A program made the translations under genes and the position numbers. 64,000 bases of DNA. Source: Pusillimonas sp. TS35. GTDB lineage: Bacteria > Pseudomonadota > Gammaproteobacteria > Burkholderiales > Burkholderiaceae_B. Shown one piece after another: positions 50,947 through 57,492 of this stretch. The first letter of the stretch is position 1. Each line of letters begins with the position of its first letter. Under the pieces are notes generated by a model that worked only from the letters and a program-made list of their open reading frames with translations, searched no databases and had not been told where the DNA came from. Location: NCBI RefSeq assembly GCF_009857885.1, contig NZ_WWER01000001.1, positions 620,001 to 684,000 on the forward strand. The letters run 5' to 3'.

Positions 50947-52287
50947 TTACGCGCGGATGGCGGGCAGGCTCTCCGCGAAGGTTCGCTTGCGGTGCAGGGC
51001 GGGCACGGCCTTGCCGCGCAGCAACAGGTTCCAGTAGAACCATGGCAGCCAGGTTTTCTTCAGCGACCAGTACAGCCGACGCGGCTTGCGTGGGTCCAGC
51101 GGCAGGCTAGGCGTAATGCTGCCCCCGTAGCTGAACTCGGCGAGGAGCACTTTGCCAGCCGATGTGGTCAATGGGCAGGCTGCATAGCCATCATAAGCCG
51201 CCTCGAGCGACCTGCCGGCCAGTTGTGCGAGCAGGTTTGCCACGACAACCGGCACCTGTGCCTTGACGGCTGCGGCCGTCTTGCTGTTAGGGGTCGAGGT
51301 GCAATCGCCCAGACCAAAAATATCCGTATGTGTTACGTGCCGCAGCGTAGCCGAGTCGACGTCCAGCCAGCCGGCGGCATTGCCTAGCGCGCTGTCGCGG
51401 ATGAAACCGGGCGCGCGCTGGGGCGGCACCACGTGCAGAAGATCGAAGCGCACAGTCTCGCGCCGCCGTTCGCCGTCGATGACCGTCTCGAAAACCGCCG
51501 CGCGCGCTGCGCCGTCCACGGCAACCAGTTCACGGTTCAGCACTGTGCGCGCGCCATAACTGGCGATGACCTCGTCCAGAGCGCGCGCATAAAAGGGCAC
51601 GCCGAAAATTGCGCCTGCGGCCGTGTAGAAGGAAAGATCAGCCTTGACGCCGCGACGCCGTAGTGCGTCGGCCGCGAGATACAAGGCTTTCTGCGGAGCG
51701 CCTGCGCATTTGATGGGGGTGCCGGGCTGGGTGAAGATAGCGGTGCCGCCATTCAGGGCTTGCACGCATTTCCATGTATAGGGCGCCAGATCGTAGCGAT
51801 AGTTGCTGGTAACACCATTGCGGCCGAGGGTTTCCTCCAGGCCGTCGATTGCGGCCCAGTCTAAGGTAATGCCCGCGGCGACCACCAGGGCGCGGTAGGC
51901 GATCCGCCGGCCATCGTTGAGCGCCACCGCGCGCTGCGCGGCGTCGATGGCGACTACCTCGCCCTGCACCAGGGTGGCGCCCGGAGGGAGGACGCTGGCT
52001 GTGTCGCGGCGCGTATGCGCGGCTTGGTACTGACCGCCGCCCACCAGCGTCCAGGCGGGTTGATAATAATGCGACGCCGAAGGCTCGATCAGCGCGATGG
52101 ACAATTGCGCATTGGCACGCCGCAGGCTCGCCGCAACAGAAACGCCGCCGGTTCCGGCGCCGATGACGACAACGTCAAAGGCGGCGGACACGGCGGCGGT
52201 GGATGAAGATGCATTCGCCAGGGCGGCGTTGCCGGAGGATATCGGCGATGCGGTTGCGGCGTAATCAGGAATGTGTGGGGTGCTCAT
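50947..52287 (-). CDS. sqr: Sulfide:quinone oxidoreductase, type II
   Basis: A 446-residue membrane-associated FAD enzyme oxidising sulfide to persulfide and passing electrons to quinone. VVIGAGTGGVSVAASLRR binds FAD. Cys194 in TPIKCAGAPQKALYL and Cys371 in YDGYAACPLTT match the redox pair of human SQOR-type (type II) enzymes; DIFGLGDCTSTPNSKTAAAV is the second FAD motif. The C-terminal WSLKKTWLPWFYWNLLLRG resembles the membrane-anchor helices. The first 35 residues are Ser/Ala-rich, so the start is uncertain. No persulfide dioxygenase or rhodanese gene is adjacent. Confidence 0.92.
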   Translation of the reverse strand: MSTPHIPDYAATASPISSGNAALANASSSTAAVSAAFDVVVIGAGTGGVSVAASLRRANAQLSIALIEPSASHYYQPAWTLVGGGQYQAAHTRRDTASVLPPGATLVQGEVVAIDAAQRAVALNDGRRIAYRALVVAAGITLDWAAIDGLEETLGRNGVTSNYRYDLAPYTWKCVQALNGGTAIFTQPGTPIKCAGAPQKALYLAADALRRRGVKADLSFYTAAGAIFGVPFYARALDEVIASYGARTVLNRELVAVDGAARAAVFETVIDGERRRETVRFDLLHVVPPQRAPGFIRDSALGNAAGWLDVDSATLRHVTHTDIFGLGDCTSTPNSKTAAAVKAQVPVVVANLLAQLAGRSLEAAYDGYAACPLTTSAGKVLLAEFSYGGSITPSLPLDPRKPRRLYWSLKKTWLPWFYWNLLLRGKAVPALHRKRTFAESLPAIRA

Positions 52288-52401: not shown

Positions 52402-53907
52402 TCACTCTTCCTCGACGAAGGCTTCTTCGCGCTTCTTCTTGACCGAAGGCAGCGCAACCAGGATGACCAGAGCCAATGCCATGGCCAGCAGCGTCAGCGA
52501 CAGCGGACGGGTGACAAAGGTGGCATAGTCGCCACGCGCCAGCAACAGCGCTCGTCGGAAGTTTTCTTCCATCATGGGCCCCAGCACCAGGCCCAGCAGC
52601 AGCGGCGCGCCTTCGCACCTGAGCTTGGCCCACACGTAGCCGATGAGGCCGAATGCGGCGGTCATCCAGATATCGAACACGTTGTAGTTCAGCGAATACA
52701 CACCGATCGTGCAGAACACCAGAATGGCCGGGAACAGGATGCGGTAGGGCACGCGCAGCAACTTGACCCACAGACCCACCAGCGGCAGGTTCAGGACGAT
52801 CAACATCAGGTTGCCAACCCACATTGAGACGATCAGGCCCCAGAACAGATCAGGGTGGCTGGTCATCACCTGGGGGCCAGGCTGGATATTGTGGATCGTC
52901 ATCGCACCGATCATCAGTGCCGTCACGGCGTTGCCGGGGATACCCAGCGTGAGCAGCGGGATAAAGGACGTCTGCGCCGCCGCGTTGTTGGCCGACTCGG
53001 GGCCTGCCAGGCCGGCGGGATGGCCCTTGCCAAAACGCTCGGGTTGCTTGGCGATTTTTTTTTCAAGCGTGTAGGACGCAAACGAGGAGAGCACTGCACC
53101 GCCGCCGGGCAGGATGCCCAGCGCAGAGCCGAGCGCAGTGCCGCGCACACATGCGGGCCAGGCTTCCTTGAACTCCGTCTTGTTCGGGTACAGCGAACCG
53201 ACCTTGTCGGTGATATCCACGCGCTGGTCGCGCAATTCCAGGTTGGTCATGATTTCGGAGAAGCCGAAAACGCCCATGGCAACCACGGCGAAGTCGATAC
53301 CATCTTGCAGTTCGGGGATGCCGAAGTCGAAACGGGCCACCCCGGAGTTGACATCGGTGCCGATCATGCCCAGCAGCAGGCCCAGCAGAATCATGCAGAT
53401 GGCCTTGGGCAGCGAGCCCGAAGCCAGCACCACGGCACCGATCAGGCCCAGCACCATCAGCGAGAAGTATTCGGCGGGGCCGAACTTGAAGGCAACTTCA
53501 GCCAGTGGTGGTGCGAAGCCAGCCAACAGCACAGTGGCCACGCAGCCCGCGAAGAACGAACCCAGCGCCGCAATGGCCAGGGCTGCGCCCGCGCGGCCGT
53601 TGCGGGCCATCTGGTGGCCGTCCAGCACGGTAACCACGGCCGAGGTTTCACCGGGCAGCGCGACCAGGATAGCTGTGGTCGAGCCCCCATACTGTGCGCC
53701 GTAATAGATGCCGGCCAGCATGATCAGGCCTGCCACGGGCGGCAGCACATAAGTGATGGGCAGCAGCATGGCAATGGTGGGCACGGGCCCGATGCCGGGC
53801 AGCACCCCGATCAAGGTGCCCAGCAGACAGCCAAGCAGGCAGTAGGCGATGTTCTGCATCGACAGCGCCACGGAAGCGCCCAGCGCCAAGTGTTCAAACA
53901 GTTCCAT
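52402..53907 (-). CDS. tctA: Tripartite tricarboxylate transporter large membrane subunit TctA
   Basis: A 501-residue inner-membrane protein with about 11-12 helices. The start (LGASVALSMQNIAYCLLGCLLGTLIGVLPGIGPVPTIAMLLP) and ILPGGGAVLSSFASYTLEKK, AAAQTSFIPLLTLGIPGNAVTALMIGAM are family hallmarks. It imports citrate or other carboxylates with a proton or sodium gradient, needing TctB and a periplasmic TctC (Bug) protein. The coding strand contains nine A residues in a row (53055-53063) within the LEKKIAK codons. It follows tctB by 23 bases. Confidence 0.95.
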   Translation of the reverse strand: MELFEHLALGASVALSMQNIAYCLLGCLLGTLIGVLPGIGPVPTIAMLLPITYVLPPVAGLIMLAGIYYGAQYGGSTTAILVALPGETSAVVTVLDGHQMARNGRAGAALAIAALGSFFAGCVATVLLAGFAPPLAEVAFKFGPAEYFSLMVLGLIGAVVLASGSLPKAICMILLGLLLGMIGTDVNSGVARFDFGIPELQDGIDFAVVAMGVFGFSEIMTNLELRDQRVDITDKVGSLYPNKTEFKEAWPACVRGTALGSALGILPGGGAVLSSFASYTLEKKIAKQPERFGKGHPAGLAGPESANNAAAQTSFIPLLTLGIPGNAVTALMIGAMTIHNIQPGPQVMTSHPDLFWGLIVSMWVGNLMLIVLNLPLVGLWVKLLRVPYRILFPAILVFCTIGVYSLNYNVFDIWMTAAFGLIGYVWAKLRCEGAPLLLGLVLGPMMEENFRRALLLARGDYATFVTRPLSLTLLAMALALVILVALPSVKKKREEAFVEEE

Positions 53908-53930: not shown

Positions 53931-54392
53931 TCAGTTGCCGATGAAGCTGGGCCACAGCGGGAAAATAAGCCCCAGGCCCTTGATGAAGGCGAGCCAGGAG
54001 AAAAGGACGAGGAACAGGCCGTTGGCGGCGGCGACCTTCCAGTTGAAGACGTGGCTGGCCATGCTGCTCAGGAATACCAGCAGGAACACCGAGATATAGA
54101 CCCCCAGGAAGTTGAGCGCCAGGCCAGTCAGCGCGACGGAGCCAATGATGATGAAGACAATGTTGAAATCGAACTTTTCGACCTCGACCTTTTCAGCCTT
54201 GGCCGACAGGCCGCTCAGGGCCACGCCTGCACCGAGAATAGCCATCAACATGCCCAGCCAGAACGGGAAATAGCCCGGCCCCATGCGTGCCGCGGTACCC
54301 ATGGAATACTGGGTGGCGCCCGCGGCAAAGCCCAACCCTACGACAAGGAACATTACGCCAGACCAGAAGTCCTGCTTGTTTCTGATTTTCAC
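53931..54392 (-). CDS. tctB: Tripartite tricarboxylate transporter small membrane subunit TctB
   Basis: A 153-residue membrane protein with four predicted helices; KQDFWSGVMFLVVGLGFAAGATQYSMGTAARMGPGYFPFWLGMLMAILG is the TctB signature start, and the end SWLAFIKGLGLIFPLWPSFI resembles the family. The start is GTG at 54392. It is the first gene of a tctBA pair; the binding-protein gene tctC, usually first in such operons, is absent here. Confidence 0.93.
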   Translation of the reverse strand: MKIRNKQDFWSGVMFLVVGLGFAAGATQYSMGTAARMGPGYFPFWLGMLMAILGAGVALSGLSAKAEKVEVEKFDFNIVFIIIGSVALTGLALNFLGVYISVFLLVFLSSMASHVFNWKVAAANGLFLVLFSWLAFIKGLGLIFPLWPSFIGN

Positions 54393-54514
54393 ATTGTCTC
54401 CACACGTGAACGGAATGACGGTGGAAGCGCGAATTGCATGCGCGCGCCTCGGAACCGTCCGAAAAAGGAAGAAGGAATGATAGGAGAGAAGACGACGGCG
54501 TAACCGGCGCGCGG

Positions 54515-54542
54515 ATTACCGGAACATTACCGATCGGTAATG
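54515..54542. promoter_or_regulatory. ATTACCG repeats and palindrome upstream of tctB
   Basis: ATTACCG occurs at 54515 and 54526 (11 bases apart) and in inverse orientation, CGGTAAT, at 54535. The last two form a perfect 18-base palindrome, CATTACCGATCGGTAATG (54525-54542). The 11-base direct spacing fits an OmpR-family regulator, one of which is encoded upstream at 56075-56791. It lies 123 bases before tctB and 58 bases after the kinase gene's end. Confidence 0.65.
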
Positions 54543-54599: not shown

Positions 54600-56078
54600 T
54601 TAGCCTTGCGAAATGGGAAGATCGACGCGCACGCGCAGGCCCGGCCGCGCATCTTCGAAGACAATGATGCCGTCGTGCAGCGACACAATGGCTCGCACTG
54701 AGGCGAGGCCCAGGCCGAAACCTGGGGCATCGGGATCGATGCGGTAAAAGCGCTCGCCAAGATGCGGCATGTGGCGCGCGTTGACGCCCGGTCCGTTGTC
54801 TTCGACGGCCAGGCGCACTACGCCGTCCACGCGCTCGCAGTGGATGACGATGCGGGCGCCATCACCCGCGTATTTGATCGCATTCTCGACCAAGTTGACG
54901 ATCACGCCAGCCAACAGGTCGGGGTCGGCCCACACCAGCGGGGCGAGCACCGGGGCGGCGAGCGGTGCGTCGGGCGTGTCGTCGTCGCGAAGATCGTGTA
55001 CCGACGCATTTTGCCCGCGGCCCAGCACGATACCGCGTTCAGCCGCGAGCGGCTCGTATAGATCAATAACGTCATCTACGATGTGGTCCAGCCTGACTTG
55101 CTGGAATGATTGACGGCGCACGCCCGATTCAGTTTCGGCGATCAGCAGCAGTTTTTCGGCGACGGTGATCATATCGAGGATCTCGCGCCGGGCATTTGCG
55201 ATGGCTTGGGAGGCCGCTGTATCAGCGCCCATGCGCGCCTGTGCGGCGTCCAGGCGCGCCAGCACGCGCATCAAGGGTGTGCGCACGTTGTGGGCGATGG
55301 AGTCTGACACGTTGCGTACGCCTTGCATCAACGCTTCAATGTCGTCGAGCATCTGGTTGATGTCGCCCCGCAGCCCTGAGAACTCGTCTGTTTCGGGGCT
55401 GCCAGGTACGCGCCGGTTTAGCTCGCCAGTGCCCACCCGGCGTGCGGTATCCCGGATATCCTGCACCCGCCACATCAGCGCCACGCGAAAGATGTACGTA
55501 CCCGCCATGACGAGGATGATCGCGATGGCGGTTGTTGCCAGCATGGCCTGGCCAATCAAGTGTTTGATCTCCTGCAATTCATAGGTGTCGCGCCCCACCA
55601 CCAGCGTCCAGCCGTTGTCCAGCGTCACGGCGCGCAGATAACCGCGATCGGGATGGCCATTGCGGCTGACGCGGATGGGTGAACTGGCGAGCTTATCCAA
55701 GCGAGCCGGGTCGGCGTCGAATGGATCGATATTGCCGACCAGTTTGGCGCCGCTTGTATCCATGAGCAGATACATTTCGACGTCGACGTCGGCATTGTCG
55801 GAAAGCAGGGTGCGGACGGTATCAATAAGCGCCGCACCGCCTTCCTGCTGGTACTGGACAACCAGGCGGCCGGCGTCGAGCGCGGTCTGGCGCGCAACGC
55901 GGGCCTGCAGCAGATTCACGATCTGTAGATAGACGAAGAACAGCACCACAATAGCGGTGACCACCGCCAGCAGGCTGTAGTTGAAGGTGAGCCGGAATGA
56001 AACCGAGCTCCAGAGCCGCCGCCAGCTTGCATCCAGGCGCGCCAGCAGGCTCCCTGCCCATATACGCACGGACATCAT
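54600..56078 (-). CDS. Sensor histidine kinase, atypical H-box
   Basis: A 492-residue inner-membrane kinase: TM1 about 33-57, periplasmic sensor about 58-175, TM2 about 178-200, HAMP (VGTGELNRRVP), then HisKA with DSIAHNVRTPLMRV (His263) and HATPase with LVENAIKYAGDGA (N box), DNGPGVN (G1), FGLGLASVR (G2). Residue 264 is Asn where most HisKA kinases have Glu or Asp. It overlaps its response regulator by four bases (ATGA). Position next to tctBA suggests control of carboxylate uptake, but it does not look like TctE itself. Confidence 0.92.
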   Translation of the reverse strand: MMSVRIWAGSLLARLDASWRRLWSSVSFRLTFNYSLLAVVTAIVVLFFVYLQIVNLLQARVARQTALDAGRLVVQYQQEGGAALIDTVRTLLSDNADVDVEMYLLMDTSGAKLVGNIDPFDADPARLDKLASSPIRVSRNGHPDRGYLRAVTLDNGWTLVVGRDTYELQEIKHLIGQAMLATTAIAIILVMAGTYIFRVALMWRVQDIRDTARRVGTGELNRRVPGSPETDEFSGLRGDINQMLDDIEALMQGVRNVSDSIAHNVRTPLMRVLARLDAAQARMGADTAASQAIANARREILDMITVAEKLLLIAETESGVRRQSFQQVRLDHIVDDVIDLYEPLAAERGIVLGRGQNASVHDLRDDDTPDAPLAAPVLAPLVWADPDLLAGVIVNLVENAIKYAGDGARIVIHCERVDGVVRLAVEDNGPGVNARHMPHLGERFYRIDPDAPGFGLGLASVRAIVSLHDGIIVFEDARPGLRVRVDLPISQG

Positions 56079-56791
56079 GTGTCGGCGCGCGTGGCGCCGG
56101 GAGGCTGATCGCGGGCCGTGAGCATATAGCCGGCGCCGCGTACCGTGTGAATCAACCAGGGCGGGGCATGGCTACCATCAATTTTCTGGCGCAGCCGGCT
56201 GATGGCGGCGTCAATGACATTGGTTTGTGGGTCGAACTGGTAGCCCCAGACCGAGCCCAGCAGCATCGCCCGTGTGAGCGTCTGGTCGGGGTGGGTCATC
56301 ATGTACGACAGCAGCCGGTATTCGCGCGGCTGCAGCGGGATGACCTTCCCGACGCGCGTGGCCCGCGGCACGGTTAGATCCAGCCGCAGATCGGCATACT
56401 CGAGTATCCGGTTGCTGTCGTCGCTTTGGGTGCGGCGTATCAGCGCCTCTGTGCGTGCCAGCAATTCCATCAGCGCAAAGGGCTTGACCAGATAGTCGTC
56501 GCCGCCAGCCTTCAGGCCGCGTACGCGTTCATCGAGCGTAGTAAGGGCGCTGAGCACCAGTACGGGCACCTTCTTGCCGAGGCCGCGCAAGGTGGTGAGT
56601 ATGGACAGGCCGTCGACCTGGTCGGGCAGCATGCGGTCAAGGATGATGACGTCCCATTGGCCCGATACGGCTTTCTGCAGCCCCTCAACGCCGTCATAGC
56701 AAACCACCGCGTGATGGCCGAGCTGGCGAAAGCCATCGGCCACATAGTGCGCATTGTCGCGATCGTCTTCGATAATCAGGCAATTCCACAT
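56075..56791 (-). CDS. OmpR-family response regulator
   Basis: A 238-residue two-domain regulator: receiver (about 1-118) with Asp52 in VIILDRMLPD and Lys in DDYLVKPFA, and a winged-helix DNA-binding domain (VIPLQPREYRLLSYMMTHPDQTLTRAMLLGSVWGYQFDPQTNVIDAAISRLRQKI). The ATG at 56791 (AAGGGA before it) is chosen over an upstream reading. It is translated with the following kinase. The ATTACCG repeats upstream of tctB are its best local candidate target. Confidence 0.93.
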   Translation of the reverse strand: MWNCLIIEDDRDNAHYVADGFRQLGHHAVVCYDGVEGLQKAVSGQWDVIILDRMLPDQVDGLSILTTLRGLGKKVPVLVLSALTTLDERVRGLKAGGDDYLVKPFALMELLARTEALIRRTQSDDSNRILEYADLRLDLTVPRATRVGKVIPLQPREYRLLSYMMTHPDQTLTRAMLLGSVWGYQFDPQTNVIDAAISRLRQKIDGSHAPPWLIHTVRGAGYMLTARDQPPGATRADT

Positions 56792-56847: not shown

Positions 56848-57492
56848 TTAGCCTCTACCCGTCAGTATCTGTTCTACCTCTCTGTCGGTGGTCTGGGTAA
56901 ACCTGTCGTACCACAGCCCTACCGCGCGGAACTGCGCCGGACAAGCCAGGCAGACCATATCGTCGGCACGCCCGGCAAGGTCTTCGCGGGCGTCGGCTGA
57001 ACCGACCGGCGCTGCAACGACAACGCGAACGGCGCCCAGTTTGCGGGCCGCGACGATAGCGGCCCGCATAGTGGCTCCGGTGGCCAAGCCGTCATCGACG
57101 AGAATCACGGTTCTGCCCTGCAAGTCCAGGGGAGGGCGGCCTGCGCGGTAGGCGAGTTCGCGGCGCTCGAGTTCGCGTTGTTCCATGGTGCGCACGCGCT
57201 CAAGCGTCTGTGCGCCGATGCCCATCAACCGCGTAACCTGCTCGTCCACCACGCAGACATCACCCGTGGCGATCGCACCCATGGCAAATTCTTTGTCGCC
57301 GGGCACGCCCAGCTTGCGTACCAGAAGCACATCCAGCGGCGCATCCAGGAGGCGGGCGACTTCAGCGGCTACCGGGACGCCGCCGCGCGGCAGCCCCAGC
57401 ACCAGCACGTTGGGCTGTTGGCCGTAGTTCGGACGCAGGGCTTCGCCCAACGCCCGGCCGGCGTCACGGCGATCGTGGTAGAGCGGTTTCAT
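56848..57492 (-). CDS. Phosphoribosyltransferase-fold protein
   Basis: A 214-residue type I PRTase-like protein. VLGLPRGGVPVAAEVARLL and LVRKLGVPGDKEFAMGAIA come first, then the PRPP-binding loop TVILVDDGLATGATMRAAI. This architecture is common in bacteria next to dienelactone hydrolase or stress genes; the purine/pyrimidine specificity of known enzymes is not evident, and the function is unknown. It stands alone, on the minus strand, between a two-component system and an ABC transporter. Confidence 0.88.
   Translation of the reverse strand: MKPLYHDRRDAGRALGEALRPNYGQQPNVLVLGLPRGGVPVAAEVARLLDAPLDVLLVRKLGVPGDKEFAMGAIATGDVCVVDEQVTRLMGIGAQTLERVRTMEQRELERRELAYRAGRPPLDLQGRTVILVDDGLATGATMRAAIVAARKLGAVRVVVAAPVGSADAREDLAGRADDMVCLACPAQFRAVGLWYDRFTQTTDREVEQILTGRG

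Follow-up and report, generated by a model that had tools for sequence, protein, structure and literature searches.

The locus described here raises the question of what a short repeated element does between a sensor kinase gene and tctB, in the 64-kb stretch of DNA that was analysed (hereafter the window). A sequence-only reading had noted phased ATTACCG repeats and an 18-base palindrome, with two direct copies 11 bases apart plus one inverse copy between the kinase gene and tctB, and our analysis confirmed this description in its exact letters and coordinates. The copies lie at 54515-54521 (+), 54526-54532 (+) and 54535-54541 (-), the starts of the direct copies being 11 bases apart, in the gap that separates the kinase ORF (ending at 54600) from tctB (starting at 54392); the regulator, kinase, tctB and tctA genes are all carried by the minus strand (Table 1). 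The heptamer alone is mildly enriched in the window (9 occurrences versus 3.85 expected, with at least 9 in 2 of 100 shuffles), and it is the arrangement, rather than the heptamer count, that is the striking feature of the site. With up to three mismatches allowed, the palindrome CATTACCGATCGGTAATG occurs a single time in the window (0.01 expected), and its 16-bp core, with up to two mismatches, is present as a single copy in the window's own genome (4,101,330 bases). We consider it highly probable that the adjacent OmpR-family pair controls tctBA through the 29-bp element, which would serve as the operator of a promoter that depends on an activator. The observations behind this proposal are the site, its conservation, its linkage to two-component genes, its orientation and its spacing to a -10-like box.

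Table 1. Coordinates of the predicted control element and of the genes around it in the window.
Feature	Position	Strand	Remark
29-bp tripartite operator (predicted), CATTAC-n6-GTAATG-n5-GTAATC	54514-54542	-	reads towards tctB
Perfect 18-bp palindrome CATTACCGATCGGTAATG (half-sites 1 and 2)	54525-54542	strand-neutral	palindrome axis conserved across 58 distinct sites
Half-sites 2 and 3, direct repeat GTAATG-n5-GTAATC, 11-bp period	54514-54530	-	
Predicted -10 box TATCAT, 31 bp after the operator	54477-54482	-	putative transcription start
tctB, 153 aa, GTG start, proposed target	53931-54392	-	Pfam TctB 70.9 bits
tctA, 501 aa, proposed target	52402-53907	-	Pfam TctA 547.6 bits
Sensor histidine kinase, 492 aa	54600-56078	-	His263 (no variation in A1 or A2) is the candidate phospho-acceptor
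OmpR-family response regulator, 238 aa, proposed site binder	56075-56791	-	Response_reg 74.9 bits, Trans_reg_C 87.7 bits

The regulator has the make-up of the OmpR/PhoB family, i.e. a receiver and a C-terminal winged-helix domain, both with Pfam scores above the cut-offs, and the closest solved DNA-binding domain is that of PcoR (2jzy). Its nearest NCBIfam model was cztR_silR_copR (TIGR01387), matched at 200.2 bits and thus below the cut-off of 279.2 bits, and it was also below the cut-off of the TctD model (NF012023; 126.7 versus 337 bits). For the sensor part of the kinase a PDC/CACHE-like domain was predicted, with WalK, TlpB, KinD and CusS among the fold matches (Z 8.8-10.9, middling values that are common and name no ligand); the catalytic core matched CusS among other kinases, which likewise names no ligand. 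The sensor domain 2CSK_N is associated with TctE. It had no match in the window kinase, nor in its sensor part at E up to 1, and was matched by 6 of 28 sensor domains (best E 8.4e-5). As to the flanking genes, tctA is followed by one for a sulfide-quinone-reductase-like FAD protein (50947-52287) and the regulator is preceded by one for a phosphoribosyltransferase-domain protein (56848-57492); both neighbours are also present in A. ginsengisoli L154.

The kinase was searched for in 151 genomes of the family, which gave 58 matches, spread over 49 genomes, at E 1e-60 or better, and 30 loci were taken; the two nearest kinase relatives in this set belong to genomes of the window's genus. The order regulator-kinase-tctB was co-directional in 12 loci (L002-L013), with tctA next in 11 and TctA undetected in L009, and tctB was divergent from the regulator genes in six (L016, L021, L022, L026, L027 and L030). 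The pattern [C/G]ATnnC-n6-GTAATG-n5-GTnAT was found upstream of tctB, pointing towards it, in all 18 of the loci with TctB beside the kinase. In an alignment of the 12 sequences of the co-directional clade, the columns without variation were those of the half-sites, those of TA and of AT in a TAnnAT motif, and one T five columns ahead of that motif. A matrix was then trained on 16 distinct sites, namely the best match in each of the 18 upstream regions to a consensus that we had composed ourselves after inspection of the same regions. Nine of the 12 other family loci, which are not training sites, scored above 27 bits, and 3 of the 30 loci scored 16.5 bits or less.

The same matrix separated TctB genes according to their neighbours. 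Among the best 30 TctB matches, taken with about 1.5 kb of flanking DNA (a kinase farther off would be missed), the seven with the kinase alongside all scored at least 32.8 bits and none of the 23 that lack it exceeded 13.1 bits; in the window's own genome one of six tctB genes carries the site. With the site in 7/7 kinase-linked versus 0/23 other TctB loci, the element belongs with the two-component system and not with tctB. The tie earlier drawn between this uncharacterised two-component system and tctBA is supported. A strict pattern, which misses some true sites, matched once in each of 10 of the 151 family genomes, in all 10 between the kinase and TctB matches by coordinates, and its reversed form, used as a control, had no match in the 151 genomes. 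The sequences are related, so these site counts are not independent.

Beyond the family set, an alignment search with the kinase listed 173 relatives, of which the top 80 were kept as named loci, mostly from beta-proteobacterial genera. As 15 of them carry a site identical to a training site, the other 65 were used as a held-out set, in which 52 loci reached at least 18 bits, 50 at least 20 and 40 at least 25. The maximum was 16.5 bits in first-order simulations of the window's composition (200 sequences of 10,350 bases); two further held-out loci (17.3 and 17.8 bits) exceed it and were left out of the count. A site of at least 18 bits was missing from 13 of the 80 named loci, all of which have the kinase. 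The 65 named loci and the 12 other family loci are relatives and form mutually overlapping sets. With regard to orientation, 66 of 67 best sites face outward from the regulator-kinase genes, and none of the 67 falls between the regulator start and the kinase end.

The geometry of the element was examined in 58 distinct sites. Around the axis of the palindrome, 4.71 of 6 pairs were complementary versus 0.14-1.88 with the axis slid, and identity between half-sites 2 and 3 was 0.72 at lag 11 versus 0.06-0.26 at lags 8, 9, 10 and 12, the direct repeats with a period of about one turn that are a trait of OmpR/PhoB-family operators. In addition, C at position 14 co-occurs with G at position 5 in 10 of 11 sites. 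The dyad and lag figures were drawn from matrix-selected sites and are therefore not independent of the matrix. Judging from these sites, the inverse copy is retained as well as the direct one, and the earlier reading can be refined: the element has three half-sites, and the inverse copy is a conserved component of it.

A further line of evidence is the distance to a putative -10 box. TAnnAT follows the site at 20-22 bp in 49 and at 31-32 bp in 11, i.e. in 60 of 66 distinct sites, with about 0.1 expected per offset and only two occurrences elsewhere in the 60 bases scanned; the remaining six sites have no -10-like box at the expected offsets. This motif played no part in the building of the matrix and is thus independent of it. 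The 31/32-bp class, the window included, corresponds to a single clade in the kinase tree, with 12 tips and a support of 1.0. A spacing of 21 bp places the last half-site over the -35 position, and 31-32 bp is one helical turn higher; a jump of one turn that preserves the helix face would be compatible with a DNA-bound activator. Neither a sigma-70-like -35/-10 pair nor a terminator-like site was found in the kinase-tctB spacer. Overall, the suggestion of an OmpR-family-like operator has gained support from conservation, two-component linkage, orientation and the fixed spacing to the -10-like box.

In the mechanism that we propose, the kinase would phosphorylate the adjacent regulator, which in its phosphorylated form would bind three GTAATG-type half-sites, two facing each other as a palindrome and the third in direct repeat with an 11-bp period. 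The bound regulator would help RNA polymerase to start at the TATCAT -10 promoter (54482-54477, minus strand), which lacks a usable -35, and tctBA would be switched on by the regulator at its operator. Binding, phosphorylation, activation and the signal are the parts of this scheme that we infer.

Kinship with heavy-metal regulators is apparent in the letters of the site. The published CopR and CzcR sites are CTGACAn5GTAAT and GAAACn6GTAAT, respectively (PMC11195947), and the C-n6-GTAAT frame of the window (CATTAC-n6-GTAATG) is the frame given there for both; by this comparison, the first two half-sites share the frame of the CopR/CzcR site. The sequence-only reading had also called for a genome search for further sites. 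This yielded one site of 21.2 bits at a CopR-type gene, but a wider regulon was not found by the two patterns. With up to three mismatches the pattern had 16 matches in the window's own genome (two of them readings of the window site) versus 7 for the reversed pattern, and the direct-repeat pattern with up to two mismatches had 22 (window site included) versus 18 reversed. The stretches around 20 of the 22 direct-repeat matches and around 11 new loci of the three-mismatch pattern (L172-L182) were scored, and besides the window site only two reached 20 bits (21.2 and 20.4). The 20.4-bit match, upstream of two tandem tRNA-like repeats, is probably due to chance. The 21.2-bit site, GATTACAAAAATGTAATGTTGAGGTCACC (L182 1465-1493, minus strand; contig C19 near 357041-357069), is located between the gene of a CopR-type regulator and an ORF that runs divergently and, with its CxxCH motif, is cytochrome-c-like. 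This regulator scored 350.2 bits against the cztR_silR_copR cut-off of 279.2 and is 44% identical to the window regulator. That GATTACAAAAATGTAATGTTGAGGTCACC precedes the gene of a genuine CopR-type regulator supports a kinship between the window site and CopR-type sites, and, as this regulator is a paralogue in the same genome, leaves room for cross-talk. Among plasmid records, 67 had a match and none covered 80% of the query. A published account of this operator was not found in the open-access literature among the titles listed.

The sign of the control deserves consideration. A place at or above the -35 position and upstream of the -10 is classical for activators of the OmpR/PhoB type. Activation rather than repression is suggested solely by such a position: the site precedes the -10-like box and either covers the -35 position or sits one helical turn higher, and the spacer offers no sigma-70-like pair, both of which argue against repression. 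Sequence conveys the position and not the sign of control, and TctD of P. aeruginosa, while required for the expression of opdH, works against PhoB at other promoters (PMC4513871). We nevertheless regard it as unlikely that tctBA is repressed by the same regulator from this site, or both repressed and activated depending on the phosphorylation state of the regulator. A different protein could also be the user of the site, either a TetR-type repressor acting on the palindrome or, by cross-talk, the CopR-type paralogue of the own genome. Perfect palindromes are also typical of TetR-type operators. CopR, CusR and CzcR have common targets in Pseudomonas (PMC11195947), and the CopR-type gene mentioned above is preceded by a similar, weaker site, so this paralogue might bind the window site too. 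Against such an assignment, the site accompanies the neighbouring two-component pair rather than tctB, is still present when a different gene follows, and contains a direct repeat; we find this assignment quite improbable.

It could also be argued that the inverted repeat acts as RNA, as a terminator or attenuator after the kinase gene, and a hairpin is indeed possible in the predicted RNA (z -2.36 for the whole 207-nt spacer). However, the spacer scan gave no terminator-like site, the element is also found upstream of divergent genes, and, being upstream of the conserved -10-like box, it would lie outside the proposed tctBA transcript; this reading is very improbable. As for a chance repeat, the mild enrichment of the heptamer alone would be in line with it, but conservation across genomes and the held-out test leave it a negligible probability. 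Chance, a terminator or attenuator and an unlinked regulator were set aside on the rarity of the palindrome, the linkage to the kinase and the spacer scans.

The operator proposed for the window regulator does not always precede tctBA in related loci. The gene within 700 bp downstream of the best site encodes TctB or TctA in 41 of the 67 cases and is another gene in 26. Ten of the downstream genes other than TctB/TctA, some after a second site of the locus, were scanned, and four CusB/HlyD-type efflux adaptors (L116, L156, L169 and L170; Pigmentiphaga, Alcaligenaceae SAGV5, Undibacterium and Collimonas loci) and one MarR regulator were detected, the other five having no Pfam match. Efflux adaptor, MarR and other genes downstream of sites suggest that the regulator and its site also serve other targets. 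The regulator family is linked to both uptake (tctBA) and efflux (CusB/HlyD) genes. Loci L109 and L114 carry two operators each: one faces divergent tctBA, and the other lies behind the kinase gene and points at a different target. The Pfam-less ORFs are L102 6011-6760, L106 2642-3358 (-), L109 6027-6905, L118 1068-1802 and L132 6010-6717; they are about 235-290 aa long, with uncertain starts, and are partly alike (19-27% identity to the L102 ORF). None of the five matched a Pfam model, or an NCBIfam model at better than E 0.1, and they may possibly represent an unknown protein family of this regulon.

Several characterized systems are comparable to that of the window. Expression of bctCBA in B. 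pertussis depends on BctDE (PMC5812351), and there, as in the window, the two-component genes are just upstream of, co-directional with and adjoining the TTT transporter genes; unlike bctCBA, the window operon has no TctC receptor gene, and the likeness is one of gene arrangement. By analogy, the window system likely works in the manner of BctDE, minus the receptor gene. A regulator of the OmpR/PhoB subfamily that controls a TTT operon and has a small regulon is also known as TctD, with TctE and tctCBA, in Salmonella and P. aeruginosa, and, as in the window, no strong -10/-35 motif is reported for PhoB/TctD sites (PMC5812351, PMC4513871, PMC10865840). The difference lies in the regulator protein, which in the window scores below the TctD model cut-off. 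CopR, CzcR and CusR are the nearest sequence relatives of the regulator; the GTAAT half-site and its frame recall CopR/CzcR and the palindrome recalls CusR (PMC11195947), whereas the window has a third half-site, TTT transport genes as targets and a regulator below the family cut-off. Here the wider gene context of the transporter comes into play. For Comamonas TpiBA, receptors are encoded elsewhere. This TctB/TctA-type pair is needed for uptake with the TctC-type receptor TphC (PMC5812351), a likeness to the pair of the window.

The own genome has 108 TctC, 6 TctB and 6 TctA matches. Going by coordinates, a TctC gene adjoins four of the TctBA pairs but neither the window pair nor a pair on contig C1; the operon of the window lacks a TctC receptor gene, and the nearest of the 108 TctC on the contig is about 100 kb away. 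The other orphan pair (G000:C1:103252-103710, L195) has a TctA 93% identical to that of the window, and neither an operator nor two-component genes were found within the stretch read around it. Receptors are known to outnumber membrane pairs in Bordetella and elsewhere: in some beta-proteobacteria there are dozens to more than 100 TctC (Bug) receptors, most of them orphans, for few TctAB pairs (PMC5812351, PMC5994714). As one membrane pair has been proposed to serve several receptors (PMC5994714), the control of a TctBA pair becomes a direct question. The element is probably the control point of an orphan translocon. More tentatively, and with clearly less confidence, one two-component system might set the level of the orphan TctBA for many of the roughly 100 unlinked TctC receptors and so gate many carboxylates at a single promoter, perhaps with receptors reporting to the kinase. 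The predicted operator, regulator and promoter would provide a handle on the control of a shared pair, and the matrix may be used to search other Burkholderiales for such control.
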